From NCBI GenBank assembly GCA_016183775.1, contig JACPDY010000023.1:1-64000 (forward strand): a DNA stretch of 64,000 bases, given 5' to 3'. Both the position numbers and the translations under genes were made by a program. The DNA comes from Bacteroidota bacterium. Its GTDB lineage: Bacteria > Bacteroidota > Bacteroidia > JABDFU01. The notes beneath the pieces were generated by a model. It was not told where the DNA came from and ran no database searches. It was given only the letters and a program-made list of their open reading frames with translations. Each line of letters starts with the position of its first letter. The stretch's first letter is position 1. This document shows, piece by piece, positions 6,701-59,509 of the stretch.

Positions 6701-7755
6701 TAGGTACTTATACAGTTACTGTTACAGATGCGAATGGTTGCAGTAAATCAAATACAGTAACAATCGGCACATCAAACGGTCCGGTGGCGGTTGCTACGGG
6801 TACTGCTCCACTTTGTAACGGAGGTACAAACGGAACAGCTACGGTATCTGCTACAACAGCAACAGGCACTCCACCATACACTTATAGCTGGAGCACAGGT
6901 GCAACTACCACTACAATCTCCTCACTTGTTGCAGATTCTACCTATACTGCAACTGTGACGGATTCTAAAGGTTGCTCAAGTGTTTCAACAGTTACGATGG
7001 GCAACCCTGCACCTTTAGCCAGCACAGCATCCGGATATGCAGCGCTTTGCGGCAGCAATAATGGAAGTACTAAAGTTGTAGTTGCAGGAGGTACACCGGC
7101 GTTCACTTACAGCTGGAGCAATGGCGGTGTTACCGATTCAATATCTAACCTGTCGGCCGGAACGTATACGGTTGCTATTGTTGATGCAAATGGTTGTACA
7201 ACAAGTTCAACTGCAATTGTTGGAACAATATCAAGTTCTATACTGGTTGTCATCCCTGCTCAACAAACGATAAATGCGGGTGAGTTCGTTTCGATCACCG
7301 TTAGTGGTGGTGTAACTTATACATGGTCGCCTGGCGCAGGATTAAATTGCACAAACTGTCCTAACCCGGTAGCAACACCAACAGTTACGACTACCTATAC
7401 AGTAACTGCTATCGATGCCAACGGTTGTACAGCAACAGCAATGATGACTGTAACTGTAAGACAGGCTTGTGATGATGAATCAGATGTTTACATCGCGAAC
7501 ATCTTCTCGCCAAACGATGACGGTAAGAACGACAAGCTCTTCGTAGAAGGTAACGGCTTAACAGATATCTACTGGGCTATTTACGATCGTTGGGGTAACC
7601 TGCTCTTTGAAGCCTTCAACCAGACAAGTGGTTGGGATGGAACAAGAAAAGGCAATCCAATGGAGTCCGGTACTTATGTGTACTACTTACGAGCCACCTG
7701 TCTCAAAACAAATACAGAGGTTAGGTTGAAAGGCAACGTGACTATAGTAAAATAA
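793..7755 (+). CDS. Giant SprB-repeat surface protein with type B T9SS C-terminal domain
   Basis: This is a 2320-residue predicted secreted adhesin. A hydrophobic segment near residues 34-49 followed by LSAQ is the likely, unusually N-terminally extended, signal peptide. The body holds about 26 SprB-like units of 75-95 residues, each with a Cys near its start, NGSATV, GGTxPYTYxW, a GL.AGTYTVTVTDxNGC ending and Thr/Ser/Gly-rich linkers. From about residue 340 the units strictly alternate between a class introduced by TEPTA with CG.xNG and a class with CNG.xNG. An Ig-like unit near 2150-2215 precedes the gliding-motility-associated type B C-terminal domain (about 2236-2320: FSPNDDGKND, YDRWGNLLFE, WDGT, VTIVK). 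SprB of Flavobacterium johnsoniae, the repeat's namesake, is a motile surface adhesin. A role in adhesion or gliding here is inference. The ATG at 793 is kept; an in-frame ATG also exists at 802. Confidence 0.93.
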   Translation: MSNMTSTQTTGKSIAGALSLSQTAHVFATNTKTFVAVIPIIVAMILCQLTTKLSAQVVITPTSTNAVCATSCDGAIDLKITGGTAPYTYAWNSSGGTGGTAYKQITLCLTGPPGATNQTATGSCNPPTAITDAAINLCPGTYTVTVTDNTGATASTVQTITAGTLNVLQVATDASTTTCVSGCTGVIKVNASAGNAPYTYAWSGSAVTGDTRNGLCTGTYSVTVTDKAGCDSVLVYNIGPTPSPTITGSSICAGGSVVLTASGGTSYSWSTGGTGSTISVAPTGSTTYTVTATNAGCPTSTASYTVVVNSSLALTTTPTNVACNGGTTGSGLANPSGGTAPYTYAWNNTQTAATATGLGTGSYQVTVTDSKGCSNISTVTITEPTAITVTTTEIKPACGAVTGSATVNATGGAGTYTYAWSPPGTSGTTISGVSAGSYTVTVTDANSCTKSDIITISNNPAPSINTLTGTPPLCNNGTNGTAVTTANGGTGTLTYAWSNAPTNNTTTTSGLSAGTYVVTVTDANGCLAVSTVVITQPTAVAATSSFVNSNCGKPDGSVSVSPTGGTGAYTYTWSGAASGQTSPATGLLAGSYTATVSDANGCTTTTSATISTQSPGVASIAPTSVKCNGGTDGTASTSMTGGTPGFTYAWAPIGGTGQTATGLTAGTYSVTVTDLNGCTSTATASVTEPTVVTASTTATTAICTAATGTATVTSGGGTSPYAYLWNANSQTTTTASGLTAGTYSVTVTDFNGCTVVTTATVIGTNGAGAASVAVQSNVLCFGGTTGALTANMSGGTSPFTYAWTSSSTAQTATGLTLGSYTVTITDANGCQTVSSGSITEPTAIFGSTTSTDATCGSSNGSATVTGGGGTGTLTYTWDASANNQTTTTATGLASGSYVVTITDGNSCTFTTTAIVNDIAPGTASVTASTISCNAGNNGSATASVSGSTASSYTWNSGPTTQTINGLTAGTYIVTVTDNNGCQMISSVTITEPTAITSATSTTSAPCGTFTGTATVNNGGGTGSYTFTWSTPPGGTTQTISGLQPGVYTVTTTDANGCTKVDQANVSNSPAPVITSLTALALKCNGDNNGTATVVASGGNGTLTYVWSNGTSGVTTATGLTAGTYNVSVTDAGGCTTVSNVTITEPAAITGTINTTATTCGSANGSVTVAPAGGTTPFTYAWSGSASGQTTASATGLSAGIYSVTATDANGCTSSASATVNNLNGPVAVATLISNITCNGQNNGVLDVSNPSNGGTPPFTYLWSGSGGTSTTATNLSADTYTVTVTDFNGCTSTSTATITEPTAITSSTTKVDATCGNNNGSSTVVYGGGTGSHTVVWSDAGSQTTDIATGLSVGAYTVTITDGSGCSKTDVVAISNNPSPTISSLTTTPLLCNGASNGTATVVATGGTAPLTYAWSNGGPSGAAATTFGGLSAGIYNVTVTDAGGCAAVSTVTVTEPAPIVLGSSATDAICNTSNGTATVSVTSGGTGTFTYSWNTAAFNQTTAVATGLAAGTYVVVVTDGNSCTSSTTAIVGNIGAGTATASLVNDVKCNGGADGSVTSVLSGATVSTYLWSNNATTQTVTGLPAGSYTVVITDVNGCAANSIVSITEPTAITNTTSKTDATCGQNNGTASVTTTNGGAGGYIYTWNQGGASQSITGLAGGSSYTVTITDAAGCSKTDVVAVSAVPSVPISVSKSDLACNGANTGTATVNVTGTVTIAWSNVPSGTGATITGLAAGTYVVSVTDANGCTSVSTASITEPTALVPSVSSTQAACGQSNGTATVTNVTGGTAPYTYAWTPGGPGQTISGLSAGNYVVVITDDNGCTVSASATVNNVGGPVLTSITGTDNLCFGQSNGTATVTVTTGTGSTPYTYVWNGGTPAVTSSTSSTISGLAAGTYNVTITDANGCVLPASVTVTEPTVLATPTTSSSNAACGKSNGSATAFSSGGTGAMTYVWDNSTTGDNATGLSVGTYTVTVTDANGCSKSNTVTIGTSNGPVAVATGTAPLCNGGTNGTATVSATTATGTPPYTYSWSTGATTTTISSLVADSTYTATVTDSKGCSSVSTVTMGNPAPLASTASGYAALCGSNNGSTKVVVAGGTPAFTYSWSNGGVTDSISNLSAGTYTVAIVDANGCTTSSTAIVGTISSSILVVIPAQQTINAGEFVSITVSGGVTYTWSPGAGLNCTNCPNPVATPTVTTTYTVTAIDANGCTATAMMTVTVRQACDDESDVYIANIFSPNDDGKNDKLFVEGNGLTDIYWAIYDRWGNLLFEAFNQTSGWDGTRKGNPMESGTYVYYLRATCLKTNTEVRLKGNVTIVK

Positions 7756-11611: not shown

Positions 11612-14600
11612 TTACGGCGCTGTAAGATTAACATTTATACTGCATCCGTTCTTATCAGTAATATTTACCGAATATGCGCCCGGACAAAGCTGGTTTTTAT
11701 ACCGGTTGGTATATCCACCCGAGGCGGGCCAAGCATAGTTATATGGATTTGTGCCACCCGAGCCGGTAACCATGATCCATTCTTTGCATCCGCAGCCTGT
11801 ACAATTGGCGGTTCCTTTTGTAAATTGACCCGCTAAAGGCTGAGGCGAAATTATTGCAGTAGTAGAAGTGGCAGTACAGCCTTTCGAATCAGTAACAGTT
11901 ACCGAATAATTGCCAGCAGGAAGACCAGTGGCGGTTTGCGTGGTTTGCCCGTTACTCCAATTGTAAGTATAAGGTGAGGTGCCGCCTCCTGGATTTGCGA
12001 TAACACTTCCATCGGTACCGGCGTTGCAGGTTATGTTAGTTGGTGCGGCAGTGATAGCAACAGATGCATTTACCGTTACAGCAGCAGTGGAGATGGCAGT
12101 ATTTCCTCCCGCATCGGTTATTGTGACCGTATAAGCGGTGGTTGATGAAGGACAAGGGTTAATATTTTGCGTGGTTGCACTATTGCTCCAAGAATATGTG
12201 TATGGTAATGTTCCATTACTGCCGCTTGCTGATACAGTAGCACAAGCTCCCGAACAGATACTTGCTCCGGTAGCCAATGCAGTGATACCGCCACAAGAGG
12301 TAACAGTTATATATGATGTTTTTATTAAACTATCCTTTTTGCAAGTTGTAGTAAGAGTTAGCTGTACACTATAGTTTCCGGCTATTGGATAGCTAACTAT
12401 TGGATTTATAGCTGTAGAACTTGCCGGATTACCGCCTGTAAATGTCCATTGAAATTTATATCCCGAAGTATCGCAGGAATTACTTACCGTTGGTGTAAAT
12501 GTAACAGGAGCATTAACACATACGGCAGTTGCGCTGGCAGAATAATTTAAGCCAAGCACCTTAGCTTCACATAGATTAATACACAGCTGCCTGATAAAGG
12601 CATCGGAAGCTCCCCAGGTACCAACAACGCCACCAAACACTGTTTGAAAAGCACCTGCTGTTACGGGGTAATTTCCATGAGTAAAACCTGTAAGGTATAA
12701 TATATTACCATCTATAGTAATTGTATTCCCATAATTATCCGCGTCATCTTCAAGGTTCCCACCCATATACGTTATACAGCGCTGCTTTCCACCGGGATCA
12801 TATTTTGCTATATACTGATCTTCATTTTCGTTTACCGGGCCGCCGCCAAAAGCAGTTTGATAAGCACATGGACTGATGGGATAATTCCCGGGACCCTGGT
12901 CCTCAAAATCTCCGGCGATATATATATTATTATTCCCATCGGTAGCTATGCCCCAAACATATTCATTGACATTTCCTCCAAGATAAGTTCCCCATTGACG
13001 AACTCCTGCGCTATTAAATTTAACCACATACGTATCAATATTAAGTCCGCCACCACCATTGCTTACCTGGTAAGCTCCAGCGGAAGAGATTCCGGTCATT
13101 GAATTGGTAACACCACTTAATATTACATTACCAAGGCCATCACATGTGTTCATACATGTGTAATACTCCTGAGCCGTTCCTCCATAGTAAGTGGCCCATA
13201 ACCGGGCTCCTGCTGAACTAAATTTAAATAAAAACCCATCGTAAAATCCGCCCGCAAAAAGAGGCTGGTGACAACCTGGAGAAACAGGAAAATTTGCTGA
13301 AGTCGTTATTCCTGATAAGTAAATGCTTGCTGTAACGGTATCATAAGAGATGCCACCATTTCCCCAATTTTCTCCACTGGAACCACCTACATAGCTGCCC
13401 CAGGTACGGTTTCCAATGGATGTAAATTTTACCAGAAAAACATCTCCGAACCCGTTAAGTGCTACTTGAAAAGCACCTGCAGTTGAAATACCAGTGGTTG
13501 AAGACGTAGAGCCATATAAATAAATATTTGAACCATCAGTAGCAACATCATAACCAGAATCCCCGCCGGTACTTCCGTAATAAGTGCCCCATAGCCTTAG
13601 TCCTGCCGGAGAAAATTTGTAAAGGAAAGCATCACTTGAACCACCTGTTGCACTTTGGTACAACACATTTCCTGCGGATGCACCAACTGGGAAATTGGTT
13701 GATCGTGTAGTTCCGGCCACTAATATATTACCAAAGTTATCTGAAGCAACTCCTGTAGGTCCTTCGCTGCCTGATCCTCCCAGGTAGGTTGCCCATAACA
13801 TGGTGCCGCCTGAATTCATTTCTACTATAAATGAATCATAAATACCAACACCGCCGCCGCCAAAAACTGTTTGAAAAGCACCTACAGTAACAGGTAAGCC
13901 AACTGAGGCAGTTTGTCCCGTAAAAGCTACATTACCTGAAATATCCGTTGTTACAGAACAACCAAAATCCGGATCACTCCCACCGTAATAGGAAACCCAG
14001 GGATCGATCACTAAAGGAAATGAAGAATTATAAATAGAAAATGAAAAATTAATAATTACCTCCCCTGCGGATATTCGGGTTAAGACATATGTTGTTTTTA
14101 TATCAATAATCTTCCCATTAATATTTTGATACACCTTAGGTATGGATTCATAAAATTCGTTCAGGCTGGTTTTGACAACTAAATTTCCTGCGCGGTTAAT
14201 GTGTATGTCTTCCGCGCCTGTCCAGTGTAGTTTTATCTGGTTAGCGTCTGCGTTTGGTTTTACAATGATGTTGTACTTTAATCCGTTTTCCTGGTTACCA
14301 TAATAACTTACATCGATGTTGTTATAAATATTTGTATAGGTTACCTTATTGTATTGCTTTACATGTGTTACTCCCATAGGACAATGGCCATAGTAATAAT
14401 TGTTGTACCCTTCCACTTCATCTTCATTGACAAAAGTTAGATTTTTATTTCCCGCCTGTTCTGAAGTTATATCATTCGTTAATATTGCAGAAGATGGGTG
14501 AGTGGGCAAACAATTGACAAAGTCCATATCGATCCTGTGTATTTTCAATGTTTGCTTTTGAATTACCTCATATTTCCCATGCTGTTCATTAGCTTGGTCA

Positions 14601-14962
14601 AGAGGAGCTGAAGCTTCTTTTTTCAGTTTTTCTGCCTGTTCTTCTGCATCATGCATTACTTCTCCCATGTTGGTAAATACATAACTTAAACCTGTTTCAC
14701 GCAGATATATGTTCGACCCACCTCCATTGGCTTTGTATAATATATCCGGACGAAATTTGCCATTCATATCCGCTATTTGTCCTTTGTTTGGGGTGAAACG
14801 CAGGCCATTTCCGCGTTGGCTTTGGGCAGGTTGCTTCTTCGCCTCAGTTGTATTTTTACCTAAATTGGTATTGGCCCCTACATAATTCACAAAAAGTAGC
14901 GACTGTAGTACAGAAATATATAATATGTTTTTAAGCGCAGTATTAAAATTTGAATTTTTCAT
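11612..14962 (-). CDS. Secreted DUF7948-like/SBBP-propeller/PKD/SprB protein with Cys-rich C-terminal module
   Basis: This 1116-residue protein has a signal peptide (about 1-31). An N-terminal domain resembling DUF7948 follows (about 55-325; TPNKGQ, DILYKA, IDPWVSYYGG). SBBP beta-propeller repeats (about 325-805) carry the recurring WATYYGG / GNVxxTGxTxSxNFPV pattern. Then come a PKD-like domain (about 815-900), two SprB-like units (about 900-1040) and the shared C-terminal module (about 1044-1116: NCTGCGCKEW, NRYKNQLCPG, DKNGC, LTAP). Neither a type A nor a type B T9SS sorting domain is present. It is divergent from the helical-family gene at 15180 (217-bp gap), with which it may share a control region. 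Its function is unknown; a cell-surface role is inferred from architecture. Confidence 0.88.
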   Translation of the reverse strand: MKNSNFNTALKNILYISVLQSLLFVNYVGANTNLGKNTTEAKKQPAQSQRGNGLRFTPNKGQIADMNGKFRPDILYKANGGGSNIYLRETGLSYVFTNMGEVMHDAEEQAEKLKKEASAPLDQANEQHGKYEVIQKQTLKIHRIDMDFVNCLPTHPSSAILTNDITSEQAGNKNLTFVNEDEVEGYNNYYYGHCPMGVTHVKQYNKVTYTNIYNNIDVSYYGNQENGLKYNIIVKPNADANQIKLHWTGAEDIHINRAGNLVVKTSLNEFYESIPKVYQNINGKIIDIKTTYVLTRISAGEVIINFSFSIYNSSFPLVIDPWVSYYGGSDPDFGCSVTTDISGNVAFTGQTASVGLPVTVGAFQTVFGGGGVGIYDSFIVEMNSGGTMLWATYLGGSGSEGPTGVASDNFGNILVAGTTRSTNFPVGASAGNVLYQSATGGSSDAFLYKFSPAGLRLWGTYYGSTGGDSGYDVATDGSNIYLYGSTSSTTGISTAGAFQVALNGFGDVFLVKFTSIGNRTWGSYVGGSSGENWGNGGISYDTVTASIYLSGITTSANFPVSPGCHQPLFAGGFYDGFLFKFSSAGARLWATYYGGTAQEYYTCMNTCDGLGNVILSGVTNSMTGISSAGAYQVSNGGGGLNIDTYVVKFNSAGVRQWGTYLGGNVNEYVWGIATDGNNNIYIAGDFEDQGPGNYPISPCAYQTAFGGGPVNENEDQYIAKYDPGGKQRCITYMGGNLEDDADNYGNTITIDGNILYLTGFTHGNYPVTAGAFQTVFGGVVGTWGASDAFIRQLCINLCEAKVLGLNYSASATAVCVNAPVTFTPTVSNSCDTSGYKFQWTFTGGNPASSTAINPIVSYPIAGNYSVQLTLTTTCKKDSLIKTSYITVTSCGGITALATGASICSGACATVSASGSNGTLPYTYSWSNSATTQNINPCPSSTTAYTVTITDAGGNTAISTAAVTVNASVAITAAPTNITCNAGTDGSVIANPGGGTSPYTYNWSNGQTTQTATGLPAGNYSVTVTDSKGCTATSTTAIISPQPLAGQFTKGTANCTGCGCKEWIMVTGSGGTNPYNYAWPASGGYTNRYKNQLCPGAYSVNITDKNGCSINVNLTAP

Positions 14963-15179: not shown

Positions 15180-16715
15180 ATGCAATCCCCATCCGATAAA
15201 TTATTTCACCTGATCAAATCCCTTAATGCTCACGAAAAACGCTATTTCAAGATGCAGCGATCGAGAAGTAAAAGTGGTAATAGTTATATCAATCTTTTTA
15301 ATGCAATTAATAATCAGACAATATATAACGAATTGTCGCTTAAGCAGCAGTTTAGAAATAAGCATTTTAAAGTTATGAAGGGCTATTTGTTTCAGGCTGT
15401 ATTAAAATCGTTATCGGATTATCATCGTACAGATTCTGTCGAAAGTGAATTGCAACAATTACTTCACCAGACTAAATTGCTTGAGAGAAAAAAACTGATC
15501 GAAATTGCGCTTAAATTATTAATAAAAGCTGAAAAATTGGCCGCTGAAAACGAGAAACATGAGTATTTGATATTGATCGTCTTTTTAAGAATAAATATCA
15601 TACGAAAATCTGAACTGCAGGAAAGGATGAAAAATTATCTGATGACTGATGCAGTTAAAATAAATGATTATATAAGGCATGTTAAAAATCATTTTGATTT
15701 ACAAAAGTTAAGAGTTATGGTGAAATTGATAAATGACAAGGGTATAGGTAACTCAAACAAGGTTGACAGAAATACTTTAAAATCGATAATGAAGTCACCT
15801 TTATTATCATCGTCTAATAAGACACTGACCTTTTCATCATTACAAACAACTAATTTCATCCGTTTTGTCTGTTCCAATGTCCTTAACAAATGGGATGACC
15901 GATTATATAAGAAGCAAAAAGGGTGGTTGGATTATATAGAAAGACGCAATTTGAAGTTTCCAAAAGCAATGGACGCGGGAAATTACTTAGGTGAATTATC
16001 AATTTTTATGATAGTTCAAATTAAAACTAACCGAACGGAAGAAATTGAACAAACATTTGATAAGGGGCAGGCATTTTATGCATCATTGCCATTAAAAATG
16101 AAGGATGGTCGATTAATCGAAATGTTTACGAACCTTACGCTTAACTATATGGGCGGTCAACTTGATTTAATTAAACCAGATAAGGTTATAGAAGCTCATT
16201 CTAGTCTAAAGAAAAAAATATCGCAACGCACTGTGAGCAACAGTTCGGGCATATGTTTTAACTTATGTTACAGCTATTTTTTATTAACCAATTATCGTCA
16301 AACATTATTTTATGCAAATCAAATTTTAAACAAAAAAGATAGTGCGAGGCTGGATATTCAAAAAAAGGTAAGACTGCTTTTTTTATTGGCACATTTTGAA
16401 CTGGGTAATTATGATCTTTTGCCGGGCATATCAAAATCTGTATTGAGATGGGATTTAAAAAACAACCTACTGAATGATTTTGAAAAAACAGCATTAAACT
16501 TTTTTTTAAAGGAAAAGATATGGCCAAATAACAGGAACGAGCGTATAAATACTTTTAAACAACTTCAGCAGAACATGTCCTTGATCCATGACAGGAATAA
16601 AGAATCGTTCCTTGCACAGGAGTTTGATTTTATTTCATGGCTTGAAAGTAAAATTCAAAACAGACCATTTGCGGAAATAATGCGTGAAAAGGCAAAAGTC
16701 ATCAAGGTGCGGTAA
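15180..16715 (+). CDS. Cytoplasmic helical-repeat family protein, copy 1 of 4
   Basis: This 511-residue protein of unknown function has no signal peptide or membrane segment. The sequence is Lys/Leu-rich and looks alpha-helical, TPR-like. It shares both ends with three other genes here (25401, 46099, 53014): the N-terminus has the pattern LFxLIKSLxxxEKRYFK, then YxxLFxAI and an LKSLxxY helix, and the C-terminus reads FDFISWLESKIQNRPFAEI. It is divergent from the secreted gene 11612-14962 and overlaps the 3' end of the convergent gene 16702-21078 by 14 bp. Repeated association with secreted giants suggests a regulator, chaperone or secretion partner, but nothing in the sequence proves it. Confidence 0.85.
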   Translation: MQSPSDKLFHLIKSLNAHEKRYFKMQRSRSKSGNSYINLFNAINNQTIYNELSLKQQFRNKHFKVMKGYLFQAVLKSLSDYHRTDSVESELQQLLHQTKLLERKKLIEIALKLLIKAEKLAAENEKHEYLILIVFLRINIIRKSELQERMKNYLMTDAVKINDYIRHVKNHFDLQKLRVMVKLINDKGIGNSNKVDRNTLKSIMKSPLLSSSNKTLTFSSLQTTNFIRFVCSNVLNKWDDRLYKKQKGWLDYIERRNLKFPKAMDAGNYLGELSIFMIVQIKTNRTEEIEQTFDKGQAFYASLPLKMKDGRLIEMFTNLTLNYMGGQLDLIKPDKVIEAHSSLKKKISQRTVSNSSGICFNLCYSYFLLTNYRQTLFYANQILNKKDSARLDIQKKVRLLFLLAHFELGNYDLLPGISKSVLRWDLKNNLLNDFEKTALNFFLKEKIWPNNRNERINTFKQLQQNMSLIHDRNKESFLAQEFDFISWLESKIQNRPFAEIMREKAKVIKVR

Positions 16716-19700
16716 GACTGACACTTGCATTGCACCCGTTTTTATCCCTGATATTTATAATATACATTCCAGGGCATAGATGATTCTTATACCTGTTCAC
16801 ATATCCATCAGGCCAGGTATAGCTATACGGACTTGTGCCGCCTGTTGCATTTACCATAATCCATTCTTTACACCCGCAGCCCGCACAGGCGGCAGTTCCT
16901 TTAGCAAATTGACCTGCCAGAGCGGAAGGAGAAATTACAGTAGCTGTTGAAACGGATGTACAGCCTTTGTTATCTGTTACTGTTACAGTATAGATCTGAG
17001 ATGTGAGATTTGAGATCTGAGATGTTGTAGCACCCGTACTCCAGTTATAGGTGAATGCGGGACTGCCACCGGCGGCGGCGGCAGAGACTGAGCCGTTTGC
17101 ACTTCCGTTACAGGGTATATTTGTAGCGGTTGCAGTAACAGTTACAGCAGGATTTATCGTTACAACTGCTGTTGAAGTAGATGTGCTGCCACCTGTATCT
17201 CTTATTGTTACTGTATATGTGGTAGTTGTTGCAGGACACGGACTTATGTTTTGTGTTGTTGCACTATTGCTCCACGAATAAGTATATGTACCGCTGCCAC
17301 CCGACCCACTGGACGTAACTGTGGCGCAGGAGCCGGGGCATACTGCACTGCCGGTGGCCGTGACTGAAGGACCAGTACAATTAATAATAGTAATATTATT
17401 TATTACTTTGTTAGTGCACCCGGCACTGCCAACTGTGTGTTCAACACTATAAGTACCAGTCGTTAAAAAAGTATAAGAAAAATTTGTTGTTGTTCCGCTT
17501 ACATTTGCAGGTGTTATTGGAGAAACAATCCAATTATATGTAACTCCAGTCCCGGGTGGGGTTCCCGTATTTGTAAAACTTACAAGTGAGCCAATACATG
17601 CAGAAGAATATGTAAATGTTGCTGAAACGGGACTTGTGCCCGTTACGTTTGCAACCCGGGTTGAAGTACATCCTATACCATCTGTTACAGTAATTGTATA
17701 AGCGCCAGCTACGAGTCCTGTGATCTTTGTACTGTTTCCAATTGAAACCAGATTACCTGTAGATCCATTACTCCAGCTATAGGAAAAAGAAGGCACGCCT
17801 CCCGTTACAGAAAGTGTTGCCTCACCACTTGCTGTACAACTTATACTTGTAGTTGTTACACTTGCAGTAAATGCGGGAGGAAGACTCAATCTCATTGTTT
17901 GACTAGTGGTACAACCGCCCTGATCCCGAACCGTTACAGTATAGTTACCAGGAACTAAACTTGTTGCACCTTGCGTAGTCTGACTGCTACTCCATGTATA
18001 TGTATAGGAAGGCGTTCCATTGAATGCATTGGCAGTGACTGAAGCTGTATTTGGAGGACATGACCACTGCGGGGCAGATAGTCCTGCCAATAAGGGCAAG
18101 GGTTGTGTAATGGTTACTGATGTTACCGATTTACATAAACCCTCTGTAACAGTCACAGTATAAGTTCCGGAAGTTAACCCCGATATCTGAGAGGTGAGGC
18201 TGTTTGTATTTGAATTCACACCATTACTCCAGCTATAGGAATATGGGCCACCCGCACCATTGCTGATAGTTACCTGCGCGCTGCCGTTGTTGGATCCATT
18301 ACAAGTAACATTAGAAGTTACACTTGTTACCACTGTCATGTTACAGCTGCAATTGGTTACTGTTATTACTTTTGATACAGAATCACGGCTGCATACGCCA
18401 TCAACCACCAAAGACACGGTAAATGTACCCGGAGCAGAATAGCTGATATTGTTCGGATCTTGCTGAGTGGAGGTTGCAGGTGATGCTCCCGGAAAGTACC
18501 ATTTATAGAGCTGACTTTTAGTATCGCAAGTAATCGTGCTGGTTACTGATGAAGTAAACTGAGCAACAGAATTACTGCAGATGCCGGCAGGAGTATTAAA
18601 ATTTGCAGTAGTACTATTAGTGGCTCCACAACTGTTACCACAAAATTTTCCAACAACTGCATCTCCTAATCCATTAGCCGCTGATCCTCCTCCGTATGTT
18701 GGTTGCCAGGCATTGGCAGTAACAGGAAAACCTCCGCCTGTTCCACCTGCCACATATACGTAATTTTGATAAGTAGCAATACCGCCGCCCAGATCAAGGT
18801 CATCCTCAATTACATTTCCTCCAATAAACGTACTGCAAATACGCTCACCGGTTGGTTTGAATTTAGTAACAAACCAATCTTCTATTCCTCCACCATACAC
18901 GGGTTGAAGCGCACAGGTATTCATTGGAAAATTGCCGTAACCCTGATCTTCAAAGTCACCAAGAATATAAATATTCCCGTTATTATCGGTAGCGCAGTAA
19001 TATCCCACCTCCATTTGGTTCCCCCCATGATAAGTGGCCCATAAACGCTGTCCTGTAGGCGAAAACTTTATTACAAAAGCATCGTACGATCCGCCATTAG
19101 AACCCTGATAAACAACATTGCCAGCACTCGCCCCGATTGGAAAATTTGTCGAATAAGTCATTCCGGAAATTACCACATTGCCCGAAAGGTCAATTGCTAC
19201 ATCATGCCCTCCATCATGTCCGCTCCCTCCATAATAGGTAGCCCACAAGCGTATTCCATTGGGAGCAAATTTCACAACAAAAGCATCCCCGTCATTTGCA
19301 AACGTGGCACCTCCAAAAGCTGTTTGAAATACACTATTACCGGCAGTTGCTCCAACAGGAAAATCAGTTGATCTTGTATTTCCGACAATTACAATGTTAT
19401 TTGAAAGGTCAACGGCAATTCCGTAGAATGGCCAAAGGCTATTCTCCGCTCCACTTCCTCCATAATAGGTTGCCCATATACGCAAACCGGTAGGGTTAAA
19501 CTTCACCACAAAGGCGTCTGTACCTCCCGCGGAAGAGTTCTGAAATATGCTATTTCCGGCAGTTGCACCCAAAGGAAAATTGATTGAAGCTGTTGTTCCT
19601 GTGATAACAATATTTCCACCCGATTCCGTTACTATATCGGCACCCGAATCACTTGCTCCTCCTCCATAAAACGTAGCCCATAAACGGGCCCCCGTTGGAG

Positions 19701-21078
19701 AAAACTTAACCACAAAAGCATCTCCGTAAGAGGAGCTTCCTGCGATGTCACCATACGTTGACTGAAATACCGTATTGCCGGCGGTTGCCCCTACAGGAAA
19801 ATTTGCGGAGTTTGTTAAGCCTGTGATCAACACATTGCCTGATGGATCGGCAGTTATTCCGTATCCATAATCGTAATTATTTCCACCATAGAAAGTAGCC
19901 CATAGTCTTGCTCCTGCAGGAGAAAATTTTACCACATAGGCATCTTGTGCCGAAGATCCGACACCTCCGGTAAGGCTTCCCTGAAATACCGTCGATCCTC
20001 CCACAGGAAAATTTGCGGAAGAGGTATAGCCTGTGATCAGCGCATTTCCATTCGCATCTACAGCAAGGCTTGTGCATGCTTCCTGATTATTACCTCCATA
20101 ATAAGTTGCCCATGCCCAGGGGTCAATGATCAGGGGGTAAGAAGGGTCGTATGTATCAACAGAAAAAGAAACAAATGCCTCATTCAGTTCCTGATGTTTT
20201 TCCCTTGAATTCAAACCCAAAACATATTTTGCTTTGATGTTTACTACGTTTCCGTTTATTAGCTGATAAACCCTTGGGATACTTTCTTCCATAGTGCCCA
20301 CAGATGTTTCAACTAAAAGATTTTGCCCCCTCATTTTTATACTTTCAAATCCTGAATACTTCAACTTTATCAGGTCCGGATCGGCGCCGGGGTTCACTAC
20401 AATATCATACTTTAATCCTCCTTCTTTACCTCCATAATACTTTACATCAATATTGCAGTAAATATTTTTTACGGTCACTTCATTATAGGAATTTACATTG
20501 GTGATGCCTTGTGGACAGTGTGGATAATAATAATTTGAATACCCTTCAACCTCTTCGGCTGTTTGAGTTTGAGCATTAGGGTTACAACCATAAAAATCCA
20601 CATCAACACGATGCAGCTTTGTAGTTTTCATTTTTAAAAGTTCCCGCATCCTTTCCTGTTCAGATTGATCCCCGAATCCACCCGATCTTTCCAACTCCTC
20701 AATCTCTTCATGCACGTCATGCATTACTTCATCCATATTACTTTGCACATAGCTGATGCCTGTTTTACGTAAATAAACATCTGCTCCCTTACATTCTCCT
20801 TTATATAAAACATCGGGGCGGAGTTGATTCTTCACATCAACGATCTGACCTTTGTTTTGTGTAAAGTTCATCCCGGAACCGCGCAGTGAAGCGCTATGCG
20901 ACTGAGCTTGTGGGCTACCTTTACCAATAGCCTGCTGTGCAAAGCCTTTACCAATAAATAAAGTTACAACCAAACAAAACCCTGCTGCCATCAATAAAGC
21001 AGAACGAAAGGCGGCAGACAATAATTTTTTTTCCTTTTGAACATAGCGTGTATAATTCTCAACTCTCAATATATCCAT
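16702..21078 (-). CDS. Secreted DUF7948-like/SBBP-propeller/SprB protein with Cys-rich C-terminal module
   Basis: This 1458-residue paralogue of 11612-14962 and 21105-25253 has a signal peptide ending near GKGFAQQ (about residue 48). A DUF7948-like domain (about 70-320; TQNKGQIVD, KTGISYV, EVMHD, IDPWAWATYYGG) precedes at least seven SBBP propeller repeats (about 321-813) and a PKD-like domain (about 833-910). Several SprB units, another PKD/Ig-like unit and more SprB units lead to the shared C-terminal module (about 1387-1458; CAGCGCKEW, WPDGYVNRYKN, LTAP). It follows 21105-25253 by 26 bp, so the two are probably co-transcribed. A heptamer tandem repeat lies in its coding sequence (16997-17024). 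No canonical T9SS sorting domain is seen. Surface display is inferred. Confidence 0.88.
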   Translation of the reverse strand: MDILRVENYTRYVQKEKKLLSAAFRSALLMAAGFCLVVTLFIGKGFAQQAIGKGSPQAQSHSASLRGSGMNFTQNKGQIVDVKNQLRPDVLYKGECKGADVYLRKTGISYVQSNMDEVMHDVHEEIEELERSGGFGDQSEQERMRELLKMKTTKLHRVDVDFYGCNPNAQTQTAEEVEGYSNYYYPHCPQGITNVNSYNEVTVKNIYCNIDVKYYGGKEGGLKYDIVVNPGADPDLIKLKYSGFESIKMRGQNLLVETSVGTMEESIPRVYQLINGNVVNIKAKYVLGLNSREKHQELNEAFVSFSVDTYDPSYPLIIDPWAWATYYGGNNQEACTSLAVDANGNALITGYTSSANFPVGGSTVFQGSLTGGVGSSAQDAYVVKFSPAGARLWATFYGGNNYDYGYGITADPSGNVLITGLTNSANFPVGATAGNTVFQSTYGDIAGSSSYGDAFVVKFSPTGARLWATFYGGGASDSGADIVTESGGNIVITGTTASINFPLGATAGNSIFQNSSAGGTDAFVVKFNPTGLRIWATYYGGSGAENSLWPFYGIAVDLSNNIVIVGNTRSTDFPVGATAGNSVFQTAFGGATFANDGDAFVVKFAPNGIRLWATYYGGSGHDGGHDVAIDLSGNVVISGMTYSTNFPIGASAGNVVYQGSNGGSYDAFVIKFSPTGQRLWATYHGGNQMEVGYYCATDNNGNIYILGDFEDQGYGNFPMNTCALQPVYGGGIEDWFVTKFKPTGERICSTFIGGNVIEDDLDLGGGIATYQNYVYVAGGTGGGFPVTANAWQPTYGGGSAANGLGDAVVGKFCGNSCGATNSTTANFNTPAGICSNSVAQFTSSVTSTITCDTKSQLYKWYFPGASPATSTQQDPNNISYSAPGTFTVSLVVDGVCSRDSVSKVITVTNCSCNMTVVTSVTSNVTCNGSNNGSAQVTISNGAGGPYSYSWSNGVNSNTNSLTSQISGLTSGTYTVTVTEGLCKSVTSVTITQPLPLLAGLSAPQWSCPPNTASVTANAFNGTPSYTYTWSSSQTTQGATSLVPGNYTVTVRDQGGCTTSQTMRLSLPPAFTASVTTTSISCTASGEATLSVTGGVPSFSYSWSNGSTGNLVSIGNSTKITGLVAGAYTITVTDGIGCTSTRVANVTGTSPVSATFTYSSACIGSLVSFTNTGTPPGTGVTYNWIVSPITPANVSGTTTNFSYTFLTTGTYSVEHTVGSAGCTNKVINNITIINCTGPSVTATGSAVCPGSCATVTSSGSGGSGTYTYSWSNSATTQNISPCPATTTTYTVTIRDTGGSTSTSTAVVTINPAVTVTATATNIPCNGSANGSVSAAAAGGSPAFTYNWSTGATTSQISNLTSQIYTVTVTDNKGCTSVSTATVISPSALAGQFAKGTAACAGCGCKEWIMVNATGGTSPYSYTWPDGYVNRYKNHLCPGMYIINIRDKNGCNASVSLTAP
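16997..17024. repeat. Four tandem TGAGATN heptamers inside coding sequence
   Basis: Units TGAGATG, TGAGATT, TGAGATC, TGAGATG lie in the 3' part of 16702-21078, where on the coding strand they encode SQISNLTSQ in the middle of an SprB unit. Seven is not a multiple of three, so gain or loss of one unit would shift the frame and remove the C-terminal module. A matching array is at 21400-21427 in the neighbouring paralogue. Confidence 0.85.
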
Positions 21079-21104: not shown

Positions 21105-24100
21105 TCAGGGTGCCGTTAAACTAACATTCACACTGCACCCATTCTTATCTTTTATATTTACAAAGTAAGAATTCGGACAAAGCCTGTTCTTATACCTGTT
21201 GGTATATCCATCCGGCCAGGTATAACTATACGGGCTTGTGCCGCCAGTAGCATTTACAAGGATCCATTCTTTACACCCGCAATTTATACAGTTAGCCGTG
21301 CCTTTGGTGAACTGTCCGGTTAAAGCCAGCGGTGATATTATTGAGGCAGTAGAAGTAGCAACACAACCTTTTGAATCAGTTACTGTAACTGTATATATCT
21401 GAGATGTGAGATTTGAGATTTGAGATGTGGTAGCACCCGTACTCCATGTATAGACATAAGGGAAACTGCCACCGCCTACTGCCGCTGCCGCTGAACCATT
21501 TGTTCCTCCATTACAGGATATATTCGTTGCAGTTGTAGTGACAGTTACAGCAGGATTTACTGTTACAACTGCTGTTGAAGTAGATGTGTTGCCACCGGCA
21601 TCTCTTACTGTTACTGTATAAGTAGTTGTAGACACGGGACAGGGAGCTATGTTTTGCGTTGTAGCTCCGGTACTCCAGGAATAGGTATACGGAGCAGTGC
21701 CGCCTGAGCCACTCGATGTTACTGTAGCGCAGGAACCAGGACACACTGAACTGCCTGTGGTTGTTATGATTGGACCATTACAGTTAACTACTTTTACTAC
21801 CTGCGTTATCCTGGAATAACAAACTCCATTACCAACCATGGTATCAATGTCGTGGGTAATATTATAAGTTCCTGCGGTCAAAAAAGTATATGAAAAATCG
21901 ACAGTGCTTCCACTTACATTGGCAGGAGTTATTGGGGAAATAAGCCAGGTGGTATAAGAAGCACCCCATTTGGACCCTGTAACATTTCCGGTATTTATAA
22001 AATTTACAGCTGTTCCGACACAAACTGTACCGGAAGGTGATATTGTAAAGGCTGCTGAAACAAATGGAGTTGACCCTGTAATATTAAATGTACTTGTTGC
22101 GGTACAGCCATTGCTTTCGGTAATAGTTACAGTATAACCTCCGGCAGCAAGGCCACCTATGGAATTTGTTCCACCCCAGCCATTACTCCAGCTATATGAA
22201 TATGGTGACACTCCGCCACTCGGAGTAACAGTAGCAACAGCCCCTGATGAAGAAGGACAGGAAATATTAGTACTTGTTTTTGCTATTTTAAGAGTTGATT
22301 GATCGACTATAGTAACCATAGATGATGCCGAACAAGCTCCATCAATGACTGTAACAGTATAATTTCCAACAGTAAGACCGGTTGCAACAGAGGATGTCTG
22401 ACCATTGCTCCAGTTATAGATATAAGGCCCTCCGCTGCCACTGCTTACAGTGGCAGTTGCGCTACCCAATTTATTGCCATTACAGGTAACGTGCGCTGTG
22501 ACCCCCGCATTGGCCATGACAGTGCATACGCAGGAAGAAAGCACTTTTGTAATACTATCTTTCTTACAAATTGTTGTAAGTACGAGTTTAGCCGTATAAT
22601 TTCCAGAAGCAGAATAGGTAACGACAGGCTTAACAGCAGTAGAACTTGAAGGGTTTCCGCCGGGAAATGTCCATTGAAATTTATATCCAGTAGTGTCGCA
22701 TGAATTGTTCACAACTGGCGTAAAAGTAATTGGTACACCGGCACATACTTTTGAAGGACTGGGAGTAAAATTCAGACCAAGGACTTTTGCTTCGCAAATA
22801 TTTATACATAGTTGAGCAATGTAAGCATCCCCTCCTCCATAACTGGCACCTCCTCCCCCTCCAAAGTCTGTTTGAAAGGCGCCTGACGTAACGGGGAATC
22901 CTAACATAGCGGGCCATGCCGGCCCAGCTGTGCTGCCCGCTACATATAAGTAATTTCCGAATATGGAAATGCCTACTCCCCCCTCTTCCAGGTCTTCTTC
23001 TCCGTCACCTCCCAGATTTGTTGTGCAAAGATATGAGCCGGTAGTACTGAATTTCGCGATGAATTCATCTTCTCCTCCCGCAGCATTACCGCAATTGGGC
23101 TGGTAAGCACAGGATGAACGGGCAACACAATTGTCTTCCATCTCTCCGAAAATATAAATATTGCTGTTGCTATCCGTAGAAATATCAGAAATCCACTCAC
23201 CGCCTGAACCAAAATAAGTTCCCCATTGTCTTGTTCCTGTACTATTGAATTTTACAAGGAACGCATTTGTTGAAGAACCAGCCAATGCTGTTTGATACGC
23301 CCCTCCTGTTGCGATGTTGTTTGGAGAACTTGTACATCCTGAAATATAAACGTTTCCCGACTTATCGCATGCCACGGCGCCTCCCGCTCCGTTAGTACGA
23401 TACGATGTAGAGCCGGCGTAGTTATCATTTGTCCCTGAACCTCCGTAATATGTAGCCCATAAGCGGGCACCGGCAGGATTAAATTTAAACAGGAAGGCGT
23501 CCTGGCCGCCTCCGGCCAAGGCCATTTGATGGCCTGCAAAAGTCGGGAAGTTTGTCGACCAGGTACAACCTGTTAGATAAATGTTGCCGGAAATATCGCA
23601 GGCAATGCGACCTTCCCAATCATAATTACTCCCTCCCACATAACTTGCCCAAATGCGATTGCCGTTTGCCGCAAATTTCACTACAAAAACATCCTGCACA
23701 CCCACAAATGCAGATTGAAAAGAACCTGCTGTTGAAATACCATTTAAAGATTTAGTCTCACCGTACAAATAAACATTATTTCCATCACTGGCAAGATCGC
23801 CACTAAAATCCTTATCAGTGCCCCCATAATAAGTGGCCCATAAACGCATACCTGCCGGATTTAATTGCAACAAATACGCATCAAGTACACCAGCAAATGA
23901 ATTTTGATGCACAACATTGGCACCTGACGTACCTATCGGCAAATCTAATGACGTTGTTTGACCTGACACTGAAATATTTCCGGCAGCATCAGTGACAACG
24001 CCATGAGCGTAATCACCTTCAGTACCGCCGTAATATGTAGCCCAAAGACGATTTCCGGCCGGATTCATTTTTACCACAAAAGCATCAATGTTGGCACTGT

Positions 24101-25253
24101 AATGATTGCCAGGTTTGATTATAAGGGAAGTCTGAAAAGCGCCAACAGATATTGGAAAAGCATACGAATATGTTTCTCCCACAAACGCCACATTACCTGA
24201 AGGATCATTAGTAACTGCATGTCCCCATTCATTACTTTCGCCGCCATAATAGCTTACCCAGGGATCGATGATTAAAGGGAGTTCCGGGTTCCAGGCCAGC
24301 CGGCCGTCAGGCATGGTTTCAAGTTCAAAGTTCACAGTTGTACCGTTAAGGATATACCGGGCTTTAACATCAACAACTTTACCATTTATATTTTGATAAA
24401 CCTTTGGCATATACTCACCAAGCCGTCCAATACTTGTTTCAATTATTAGTGTTTCTTCCAATCCATCGGGATCAATTCTTAATTCCTTTGCTCCACTGTA
24501 TTTTAGTTTTATTTGATTGGGATTGCCTCCAGGATTTACCACTATATCGTATTTTAACCCATTTTGTTTGCCGCCATAATATTTCACATCTATGTTATTG
24601 TAAACATTTTTTATTGTTACCTCATTATAAGAATTAACATTGGTTATGCCCTTTGGACAATGTGCATAATAGAAGTTAGAATAACCTTCTAATCGCTCTT
24701 TTACAATTGTCCGGGGGCTCAGATTTCCATTTACAAAGTCAATATCAATTCTGTGTATTTTCTGAAGGAGTTCCTTTTCCACTTCTTCATTTACCGGTTC
24801 TGCATCCGTAATACTATTTTGTGCACCACCGGGCATACTATTCTTCATACGCTCCTCAGCCTGTTCATGCATTTCATGCATTACTTCTCCAATATTGCTT
24901 TGAACGTAACTGATCCCGGTTTTGCGGATATATATATCGGCTCCTCCCCCATCTCCTTTAAATAAAATATCAGGGCGTACTTTGCCGGCCATATCAACGA
25001 TCTGTCCTTTGTTTTGGGTAAAGTTCATTCCGGCTCCACGCAGGGAAATATCAGGCGCCTGAGTTTGTTGATCGCCTTTGCCAATAGCTCGTTGTGCAAA
25101 ACTGCTTTGAATAAAAAGAATGGAAACTAAACAGAGTCTAACCGAAATAAATAAAACAAACCGAAGGCTGGCAGGCAATAATTCTTTTCCCTTGCGAATT
25201 TGATCTACGTAATTTTTATTTGTCAAGTGATTTTGTTTTGATATTGTATGCAA
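21105..25253 (-). CDS. Secreted DUF7948-like/SBBP-propeller/SprB protein with Cys-rich C-terminal module; uncertain start
   Basis: This is a 1382-residue protein. A hydrophobic stretch near residues 32-52 ending SSFAQR is the likely signal peptide. A DUF7948-like domain (about 75-328; TQNKGQIVDM, KTGISYV, EVMHEMHE) precedes SBBP propeller repeats (about 328-818), a PKD-like domain (about 831-904), SprB units, a second PKD/Ig-like unit and the shared C-terminal module (about 1311-1382; CINCGCKEW, NRYKNRLCP, LTAP). The first in-frame start is a TTG at 25253. An ATG at 25267 is one base out of frame across a run of seven T, so the start may be phase-variable or affected by an indel error. It leads the 16702-21078 gene (26-bp gap) and is divergent from the helical-family gene at 25401. 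Confidence 0.85.
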   Translation of the reverse strand: MHTISKQNHLTNKNYVDQIRKGKELLPASLRFVLFISVRLCLVSILFIQSSFAQRAIGKGDQQTQAPDISLRGAGMNFTQNKGQIVDMAGKVRPDILFKGDGGGADIYIRKTGISYVQSNIGEVMHEMHEQAEERMKNSMPGGAQNSITDAEPVNEEVEKELLQKIHRIDIDFVNGNLSPRTIVKERLEGYSNFYYAHCPKGITNVNSYNEVTIKNVYNNIDVKYYGGKQNGLKYDIVVNPGGNPNQIKLKYSGAKELRIDPDGLEETLIIETSIGRLGEYMPKVYQNINGKVVDVKARYILNGTTVNFELETMPDGRLAWNPELPLIIDPWVSYYGGESNEWGHAVTNDPSGNVAFVGETYSYAFPISVGAFQTSLIIKPGNHYSANIDAFVVKMNPAGNRLWATYYGGTEGDYAHGVVTDAAGNISVSGQTTSLDLPIGTSGANVVHQNSFAGVLDAYLLQLNPAGMRLWATYYGGTDKDFSGDLASDGNNVYLYGETKSLNGISTAGSFQSAFVGVQDVFVVKFAANGNRIWASYVGGSNYDWEGRIACDISGNIYLTGCTWSTNFPTFAGHQMALAGGGQDAFLFKFNPAGARLWATYYGGSGTNDNYAGSTSYRTNGAGGAVACDKSGNVYISGCTSSPNNIATGGAYQTALAGSSTNAFLVKFNSTGTRQWGTYFGSGGEWISDISTDSNSNIYIFGEMEDNCVARSSCAYQPNCGNAAGGEDEFIAKFSTTGSYLCTTNLGGDGEEDLEEGGVGISIFGNYLYVAGSTAGPAWPAMLGFPVTSGAFQTDFGGGGGASYGGGDAYIAQLCINICEAKVLGLNFTPSPSKVCAGVPITFTPVVNNSCDTTGYKFQWTFPGGNPSSSTAVKPVVTYSASGNYTAKLVLTTICKKDSITKVLSSCVCTVMANAGVTAHVTCNGNKLGSATATVSSGSGGPYIYNWSNGQTSSVATGLTVGNYTVTVIDGACSASSMVTIVDQSTLKIAKTSTNISCPSSSGAVATVTPSGGVSPYSYSWSNGWGGTNSIGGLAAGGYTVTITESNGCTATSTFNITGSTPFVSAAFTISPSGTVCVGTAVNFINTGNVTGSKWGASYTTWLISPITPANVSGSTVDFSYTFLTAGTYNITHDIDTMVGNGVCYSRITQVVKVVNCNGPIITTTGSSVCPGSCATVTSSGSGGTAPYTYSWSTGATTQNIAPCPVSTTTYTVTVRDAGGNTSTSTAVVTVNPAVTVTTTATNISCNGGTNGSAAAAVGGGSFPYVYTWSTGATTSQISNLTSQIYTVTVTDSKGCVATSTASIISPLALTGQFTKGTANCINCGCKEWILVNATGGTSPYSYTWPDGYTNRYKNRLCPNSYFVNIKDKNGCSVNVSLTAP
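21400..21427. repeat. Four tandem TGAGATN heptamers inside coding sequence (second array)
   Basis: Units TGAGATG, TGAGATT, TGAGATT, TGAGATG occupy the equivalent position in the last SprB unit of 21105-25253 and encode the same peptide as the array at 16997-17024. The two arrays are paralogous or homogenised. Confidence 0.85.
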
Positions 25254-25400: not shown

Positions 25401-26945
25401 ATGAAAACCCCTTCCGACGAACTTTTCCAATTGATAAAGTCACTTACATCCCAGGAAAAAAGATGCTTTAAGCTCAATTTTGATATAAAAAAGCCTAAAA
25501 GTAATTTTATAACTCTTTTTGACGCTATTGATTCTATGGGAGCTTATAGCGAATCTGAACTTATAAAAAAGTTGAAAAAAACGGGTGGAATTAAGAACCT
25601 GAAACAAGTCAAAAGTCAATTATATGATAAAATTGTTGTCGCCATCTCAATTTATGCGAACGATTCGTCCGTAAAGAGAAAGATCCAAAACCTGATCCAC
25701 TACTCTGAATTATTATTAGAAAAATCACTGTACCGCTCATCCATACACTATCTGTTAAAAGCGGAAGCTTTGGCTATTGAACATGAACAATATCCTTACT
25801 TACTATCTATAAGTTATCTCAAAGCATCACATGCCCGGCATCTGAACATAAAAGACGGAACAGCTGTGATCATTGATAAAGAAACAGCGGCTGAAAAAAA
25901 ATACATTCATTCCATCCAAAACACAATTGAGTACAGGAATATATGGCTCGGGGTAAGTAATATTTACAGCCTGTACGCTGATAATTTAAAAAGTGTTGCA
26001 TTATTAAAAAAAGTGAAACACATTTCAGATCTACAGCTGATAAAAAACAAAAATCTTGCACAAACTTATTTATCGAAGAACTACTATTATGACACCAGGC
26101 ATCTTATAAATATGTTAACCGGAAAGTGGAATAATTCTTCGTTCGATCTGCAAAACGAATTCGTAAAATATCTTGAACAGCAGCCGGACCTCCTGTTTTC
26201 AAGAGCCTCAAATTACATAACTGCACTATCGCGTGTTATTACCACATTAAACAAAATAAACCGATCCGATGAGATAGAAGTTTTTTTTAATAAGGCGAGT
26301 GGTTTTTTTATTTCACTCCCTACTAAAAAGAAAAGCAGAAATTTAAGCTCGTATTTCGCAGGGGTGATATTAGCAAATTATATGGACGCCCAATTAATAT
26401 TATTACACCCTGAAAAAGCCATTGACTCCTGGGAAAAAGTAAAAAATGAAGTACACAAGGAGATGCCTACAACCGGTGCCGACCTGGTGGTATACATAAA
26501 CCTGTTTTTAGGTTATTTCTATTTATCAAAGTATCGCGAAGCCCTCCAAAACCTGAACATCGTCATTAATTTCAATAAGCCAAACCGTATCGATATCCAG
26601 GCGGATGCAAGGTTGTTTATTCTAATTCTTCATTATGAGTTAGGCAATACCGATCTTTTACCAAACCTAACGAGGGCCTCAAAGAATTTTTTGCAGAAAA
26701 ACGGGTATTATACCGAATTTGCAAACGTGATAGTTGTATTTTTTGAAAAAGAAATTCATTCAGGCAAAACAAAAAACTTCAATTCATTTGTTCTCCTTAA
26801 AACTAAACTATCCGCCCTGATTAAACATCGCGAAGCAAAAAAAGCAATGGAATACTTTGATTACCTATCCTGGATCGACAGTAAATTAGAGAACAAGCCA
26901 TTCATAGAAATCCTAAGAAAAAAAGCTCTTCAAAAAAACACTTGA
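25401..26945 (+). CDS. Cytoplasmic helical-repeat family protein, copy 2 of 4
   Basis: This 514-residue protein of unknown function has no signal peptide or membrane segment. The N-terminus (PSDELFQLIKSLTSQEKR) closely matches the copy at 15180, and the C-terminus has the family signature FDYLSWIDSKLENKPFIEIL. The middle is Leu/Lys/Tyr-rich and probably TPR-like helical hairpins (for example LLKAEALAIEHEQYPYL). It is divergent from 21105-25253 with 147 bp between starts. It is the most divergent of the four copies in the N-terminal third. Role unknown; a gene-specific regulator or secretion partner is possible. Confidence 0.85.
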   Translation: MKTPSDELFQLIKSLTSQEKRCFKLNFDIKKPKSNFITLFDAIDSMGAYSESELIKKLKKTGGIKNLKQVKSQLYDKIVVAISIYANDSSVKRKIQNLIHYSELLLEKSLYRSSIHYLLKAEALAIEHEQYPYLLSISYLKASHARHLNIKDGTAVIIDKETAAEKKYIHSIQNTIEYRNIWLGVSNIYSLYADNLKSVALLKKVKHISDLQLIKNKNLAQTYLSKNYYYDTRHLINMLTGKWNNSSFDLQNEFVKYLEQQPDLLFSRASNYITALSRVITTLNKINRSDEIEVFFNKASGFFISLPTKKKSRNLSSYFAGVILANYMDAQLILLHPEKAIDSWEKVKNEVHKEMPTTGADLVVYINLFLGYFYLSKYREALQNLNIVINFNKPNRIDIQADARLFILILHYELGNTDLLPNLTRASKNFLQKNGYYTEFANVIVVFFEKEIHSGKTKNFNSFVLLKTKLSALIKHREAKKAMEYFDYLSWIDSKLENKPFIEILRKKALQKNT

Positions 26946-27060: not shown

Positions 27061-27158
27061 CCATGAAATAGCCATATTATTGCTGGTATACAAACCTACA
27101 TGAATATATAGCGTATTCCATCTGACAAACAGTAACTTAAAAAATTATATACAAATGA
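27061..27158 (+). repeat. Conserved promoter/leader block, partner of 187-287
   Basis: The block runs directly into the start codon at 27155 and matches the minus strand of 187-287. The best-conserved part is the last 47 bases, including ttaaaaaattatata just before the ATG. Conservation of a non-coding leader at this level implies regulatory function or recent duplication. No clear Bacteroidota TAnnTTTG promoter element was recognised within it. Confidence 0.75.
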
Positions 27159-54591: not shown

Positions 54592-54746
54592 CGAAAATTT
54601 ATTCTAGATTATATAAATATCTGATAAATAGATAAATATACAAAAAATCTTGCGCATCAATTTTTAATAATTGAAGTGTTTTTTATTTGTCTTCCCTTCA
54701 TTTAATTAGTAAATTTCGTTTGATACATTTCTTAACAGATGTGACG

Positions 54747-59441: not shown

Positions 59442-59509
59442 CGCTTAAAAATAAGGCCGCCAATTTCCTGAAAAACAAATCGGTTCAGTTTGTTGAGAAT
59501 AAAGGACAA

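Follow-up and report, generated by a model that had tools for sequence, protein, structure and literature searches.

Cargo of the T9SS carries C-terminal domains (CTDs) of unrelated classes. Two questions about them remain open: how a single translocon can recognise signals that are not related, and whether the final destination of a protein is set by its signal (PMC10202324, PMC12618676). In type A CTDs the end of the chain is important (PMC11285876). Type B domains often have cognate PorP/SprF genes in adjacent positions (PMC12618676), and at least some of them anchor through PorP-like proteins (PMC9143113). In Bacteroidota, outer-membrane proteins are also known to be attached by disulfides to the T9SS/gliding track (PMC12635249).

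The window, a stretch of 64,000 nucleotides analysed as a whole, belongs to the genome of an uncultured member of the Bacteroidia (G000; 4.54 Mb, 164 contigs, 97.7% complete). Five of its ORFs share a Cys-rich tail, hereafter the module, which makes up their last 70–74 codons (Table 1). Tails 2 to 5 are 71–76% identical to tail 1, and the alignment of the five contains 40 invariant positions over 70 columns. The first-pass annotation had described the hosts as five complete proteins; all five tails are present where it placed them, but two of the proteins are not intact, since ORF 59510-63253 starts inside DUF7948 with no signal peptide in frame and ORF 54687-59441 ends in ...NLTVKLLT rather than ...LTAP. 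At the junction 59380-59520, module gene 4 is without its normal end and module gene 5 without its signal peptide. This one junction accounts for both altered ends; it resembles the outcome of a deletion between tandem genes, or of a join made in assembly. As had been noted, none of the five tails is a type A or type B signal over threshold, and other ORFs in the window end in one or the other.

Table 1. Positions of the modules, their host ORFs, the T9SS signals used for contrast and the neighbouring cytosolic genes in the window.
Feature	Coordinates	Strand	Size	Description	Basis
Module copy 1	11612..11830	(-)	72 aa + stop	C-terminus of ORF 11612-14962	HMM, 147 bits
Module copy 2	16702..16914	(-)		C-terminus of ORF 16702-21078	Translation + HMM
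Module copy 3	21105..21317	(-)		C-terminus of ORF 21105-25253; structure-prediction input	Translation + HMM
Module copy 4	59220..59441	(+)		C-terminus of ORF 54687-59441; end altered (...LTVKLLT)	
Module copy 5	63041..63253	(+)		C-terminus of ORF 59510-63253; host ORF without signal peptide	
ORF (module gene 1)	11612..14962	(-)	1116 aa	DUF7948 - SBBP propeller - PKD - SprB repeats - module	Pfam
ORF (module gene 2)	16702..21078	(-)	1458 aa	DUF7948 - SBBP - PKD - SprB repeats - module	Pfam
ORF (module gene 3)	21105..25253	(-)	1382 aa	DUF7948 - SBBP - PKD - SprB repeats - module	Pfam
ORF (module gene 4)	54687..59441	(+)	1584 aa	DUF7948 - SBBP - SprB repeats - module	Pfam
ORF (module gene 5)	59510..63253	(+)	1247 aa	DUF7948 - SBBP - SprB repeats - module; N-terminally truncated	Pfam
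Type B T9SS signal (contrast)	7492..7743	(+)		ORF 793-7755	TIGR04131
Type A T9SS signal (contrast)	34094..34330	(+)		ORF 27155-34336	PF18962
Type B T9SS signal (contrast)	40057..40314	(-)		ORF 40054-42960	TIGR04131 + CHU_C
Type B T9SS signal	43240..43482	(-)		Over threshold	TIGR04131
Type B T9SS signal	47673..47927	(-)		Over threshold	TIGR04131
BT_2802-like cytosolic protein	15180..16715	(+)		Neighbouring gene outside the module, divergent from module gene 1	
Paralogous cytosolic protein	25401..26945	(+)		Divergent from module gene 3	
Paralogous cytosolic protein	53014..54591	(-)		Divergent from module gene 4	
Cytosolic family member	46099..47634	(-)			

A search of the whole genome with the five tails returned at least 150 scored matches, nearly all of the full-length ones with E values of 1e-36 to 1e-46, far beyond chance. 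In the regions around the matches we counted at least 144 distinct module copies, taking an HMM score above 90 bits as the threshold for a copy, so the original figure of five was a large undercount. The ORFs that bear them total 144,070 codons, or about 9.5% of the genome. A stop codon directly follows the module in 144 of 144 copies, 136 of which have no residue at all after the match. The near-invariance of Cys and Trp seen in the five tails holds across the 144: conservation is 100% in four Cys columns and 99% in the fifth, exactly five Cys occur in 142 copies, and W18, W34 and Y30 are invariant. The general rule for the ending is a C-terminal Pro, found in 99% of the copies, rather than the LTAP or STP first described.

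The tail is also conserved above the repeats that precede it, as had been proposed. Among 108 long proteins, the median pS is 0.731 in the module, 0.727 and 0.732 in the preceding repeats and 0.761 in the N-terminus, whereas pN is 0.14 in the module and 0.38, 0.50 and 0.49 in the same repeats and N-terminus. Because synonymous sites are saturated, the conservation of the module reflects selection and not recent duplication. The tail is thus of old age, and it is under much stronger constraint than the bodies that carry it. Many of the genes themselves are arranged in tandem, with 83 of 93 adjacent copies on the same strand. Several are internally deleted or frame-broken (L037_+7727, L048_+5170, C117:4646-8243 and C56:12812-16049), including a 150-aa ORF in which SBBP sequence is fused straight to the module, and these broken genes suggest frequent recombination in the arrays.

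The C-terminal position was equally strict beyond the 144 copies. In all fetched sequence, the five-Cys signature is C-terminal in 202 of 202 cases, whereas 121 of 125 four-Cys SprB units are internal or run off the sequence and only 4 are C-terminal; most of the loci behind both counts were chosen for module or SprB matches. No internal module copy was found in G000 or in the fetched loci, in agreement with the expectation that hits would almost always be C-terminal. Three weak matches in long type B proteins were considered as internal modules and rejected, their scores being far below those of module copies and near those of ordinary SprB units.

Scans of the modules against Pfam and NCBIfam gave no match to a sorting-domain HMM; such a match had been named as what would speak against a new domain. 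There was no match to type A PF18962, the sole sub-threshold hit lying upstream of the module (ORF 54687, residues 1389-1422), and none to type B TIGR04131 or PF13585. For type C (ChiA type), NCBIfam gave no match up to E 10 and Pfam none, in scans that did not address cl41395 by name. By its sequence, the module is neither type A nor type B. It is also not found together with type B signals: no module in G000 lies within 600 bp of one on the same strand, and no protein carries both, consistent with the predicted anticorrelation.

The T9SS translocon protein SprA (TIGR04189) is present in all four module genomes tested, which bears out the proposed association with T9SS-positive genomes. In G000 it is encoded by a single full-length gene; in G002, G003 and G028 the genes are full or partial. 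In G000, 47 type B hits exceed the cut-off, and there are at least 150 matches to type A and 16 full PorP/SprF-family genes. A linked PorP/SprF shuttle for the module genes was rejected: none of the 16 genes lies within 12 kb of any copy, the nearest being 12 kb off, and no dedicated shuttle was found.

The carriers appear to be exported. By a simple hydropathy test (not SignalP), a hydrophobic N-terminal segment is present in 91% of 115 N-complete module proteins versus 8% of 49 cytosolic controls. Most carriers are of one make-up, as 116 of 126 module ORFs with an upstream stop fall into a single N-terminal cluster (DUF7948-SBBP). The others, whose architectures in G000 were read by eye without HMMs, include propellers of the Kelch-like and of a second family, PKD proteins, one differently composed protein of 1317 aa and a few short fragments; one carrier, the 556-aa propeller-PKD protein L056, shows no SprB repeats upstream of the module. 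Together with a lamin-tail-domain protein found in other genomes, the module therefore sits on several otherwise unrelated bodies: DUF7948-SBBP, Kelch-like, other propeller, PKD and lamin-tail.

On the DUF7948-SBBP-SprB bodies, the module occupies the place that homologous proteins give to the type B signal. Among 96 listed of the 140 DUF7948 frames in G000, 74 end in the module and 8 in a type B signal; of the remaining 14, 11 reach the end of a contig and 3 have a broken frame followed closely by a module, so that no resolved frame among the 96 is without a module or type B tail. In module-free genomes (the congeners G001 and G004, and G022), complete DUF7948-SBBP-SprB proteins end in type B (CHU_C) in 17 of 18 cases and in type A (Por_Secre_tail) in one. 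A quick tree of the 140 DUF7948 domains gave 16 changes of tail label, at least 7 of which are forced by well-supported branches, and one type B-tailed protein is 54% identical over 945 aligned residues to a module-tailed one. Because the tree forces at least 7 switches and such close relatives end in different tails, we conclude that tails have been exchanged repeatedly, as expected of parts with an equivalent job. This replacement in one slot is the strongest argument for reading the module as a sorting signal.

The origin of the module can be read from its relationship to SprB repeats, which had been suggested at the outset and is confirmed by profile score and predicted fold. With the module HMM, internal SprB units reach 30-38 bits, and Pfam SprB (PF13573) matches 13 of 14 modules with a best E of 1.3e-5; the module listed in full (member 1) scores 21.3 bits against a cut-off of 28, which is below the gathering cut-off. 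AlphaFold2 predicts a six-stranded Ig-like sandwich for the module, the same as for the SprB unit before it, with a pLDDT of 90.8 for the last SprB unit plus module and 87.5 for the module alone (copy 3). Fold matches of the module and of the pair are Ig-like. The best Foldseek match of the pair is the Aureispira GhpA stalk fragment 9flw (E 3e-5; VIA Z 8.1-8.3); the module alone gave only generic Ig-like matches, none under E 0.001. No type A CTD is among the top ones, an absence that carries no weight either way. The Ig-like likeness that it shares with type A signals (Z under 8) is not diagnostic. In the alignment, C10, C15, C47 and C61 have counterparts in four-Cys SprB units, which suggests that C13 of the CxxCxC motif is the additional residue; in essence the module is an SprB repeat plus one Cys.

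The distribution of the module is narrow. A pattern scan of 84,980 species genomes found it only in MAG-335 (JAEUTS01), SJ452 (JADLGT01) and the Flavobacteriales MAG NORP27 (NVWW01). Within genus g1, three of six genomes have it, and G001, G004 and G005 (56-72% complete) gave no strong match. NORP27 (G028) has three divergent copies on different bodies, all C-terminal, five-Cys and Pro-ending. A DNA pattern for D-x-N-G-C-x8-P-stop, run on 395 genomes of the class, gave 137 hits in G000, 50 in G002, 20 in G003 and 3 in G028. Five genomes of family f23 also have a single tail of this kind each, there on an orthologous lamin-tail-domain protein (one frame is only 83 aa). Between the HMM search of 395 phylum genomes and the pattern search of 395 class genomes, the module was found only in genus g1, G028 and family f23; scattered single pattern hits elsewhere were discarded, those that were read being short unrelated frames. 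The module is thus confined to one genus, with low-copy forms in two other families. The lamin-tail-domain protein (INEVSQG...) with its five-Cys tail is common to these two families (G027, G456, G485, G512, G584 and G028; L266, L278-L280, L282) and is probably the carrier closest to the ancestral one. The tail probably predates the expansion and then multiplied in one lineage.

A separate feature of the loci is a family of cytosolic proteins of about 510-530 aa, with 92 matches in G000, whose genes are interleaved systematically with the module genes, usually 60-430 bp upstream and in divergent orientation. NCBIfam gives a distant match to BT_2802 of ribose utilisation. BT2802 is a regulator, so the family may supply each surface-protein gene, or each pair of them, with a regulator of its own. 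The divergent pairing with DUF7948 genes also occurs in module-free genomes (G001:C11:35110-37691 and G022:C110:18645-21112), indicating that it is independent of the tail.

Taken together, we consider that the module probably represents a new class of T9SS C-terminal signal, the fourth, with a terminal SprB (Ig-like) repeat as its ancestor. We judge this reading the most likely because the proteins look exported and lack another known export signal, the genomes are T9SS-positive, and the module sits in the signal slot of relatives. The first-pass proposal of a candidate sorting domain is supported by the invariable C-terminal position, SprA in the genomes tested, the lack of a sorting-HMM match and the type B slot, from which we infer the sorting role. 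Module proteins would cross the inner membrane by Sec. In the periplasm the T9SS, presumably the SprA translocon and a putative PorV/PorP-like shuttle, would recognise the 70-residue tail as a folded domain whose C-terminal edge is fixed (a hydrophobic strand ending in Pro-COOH). The tail would then take the body to the cell surface and may anchor it there. Two disulfides of the module are probably those of four-Cys SprB units, and the invariant fifth Cys (C13) may stay free or link covalently to a partner. Against this reading stand the absence of linkage to PorP/SprF genes and the narrow range: three of the six genomes of one genus, a single genome of another family with three copies, and five genomes of a third family with one copy apiece. 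Type A cargo, however, is likewise without PorP/SprF linkage. Elsewhere, SprB relatives form internal repeats of stalks and are not known to have a role in sorting, which also speaks against a new signal class and makes a cap function possible.

The main rival, which we regard as unlikely, is a surface anchor or cross-linking cap: export would use another feature or route, and the fifth Cys and conserved end would fix the proteins to one another or to a partner in the outer membrane or at the surface, the tail replacing the anchoring and not the export role of type B domains. The invariant odd number of Cys and the anchoring of some type B domains via PorP-like proteins (PMC9143113) favour it, and disulfide attachment to the T9SS/gliding track gives it precedent and nothing more (PMC12635249). 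A pure anchor, however, would leave export unexplained in proteins without another known export signal, in a slot that relatives fill with an export-required domain. Still less probable is a structural terminal cap, in which the last repeat would stabilise the chain end of an SprB stalk with no targeting function. The homology to SprB repeats and the shared predicted fold agree with a cap, but the module also ends L056, where there is no such stalk, it and type B signals replace each other on a single type of body, and its fixed carboxy-terminal residue is not needed by a cap. Recent gene-family expansion or gene conversion, by which the tail would be conserved through copying and would have no special role, is very improbable. 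Very high copy number in one genome and the tandem arrays point that way, but with pS saturated and equal in module and body (about 0.73) amino-acid change is suppressed only in the module, and two other families have low-copy homologues that share the five Cys and the terminal Pro; the saturated synonymous sites rule out recent copying as the cause of the conservation. Returning to the new signal class, a more specific version is conceivable though doubtful: an internal adhesin repeat would have become a terminal tag and displaced type B on about 100 paralogues, with the odd Cys forming a disulfide to an outer-membrane shuttle or track, making export and covalent anchoring one step.

Two signal classes that swap many times on one body provide natural matched pairs for the question of translocon recognition. 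If the sorting reading is true, it would show how a secretion signal can arise from a repeat within the cargo itself, and about 9.5% of a genome, in which no secretion signal is at present recognised, would be assigned to the surface proteome.

Among known systems, the type B CTD (TIGR04131 / PF13585 CHU_C) resembles the module in its place at the extreme C-terminus of DUF7948-SBBP-SprB bodies and alternates with it on close relatives, but it is an 85-position model with an FxPNAFSPNGDGxND motif and no conserved Cys, to which the module has no sequence match. The type A CTD (TIGR04183 / PF18962) is likewise a beta-sandwich of about 70-100 residues with many unlinked substrates per genome; it is a seven-stranded 3+4 Ig-like sandwich without a five-Cys signature, whereas the module is predicted to have six strands and has no HMM match. 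The type C CTD (ChiA type, cl41395; PMC10202324) is a precedent for a rare, lineage-limited third signal class. The Aureispira grappling-hook protein GhpA (PDB 9flw, 9flu, 9g8b, 9fls), a giant surface protein of a Bacteroidota bacterium, has similar Ig-like stalk repeats, but the match is to internal stalk domains with no known C-terminal sorting role. The SprB repeat (PF13573) has clear homology to the module in the core GGTxPYxYxW...LCPGxYxVxxxDxNGC and the same predicted fold. SprB repeats occur as internal tandem units with 2 or 4 Cys, whereas the module has a third N-terminal Cys, a GYxxRYxN motif, an obligatory C-terminal position and a final Pro.
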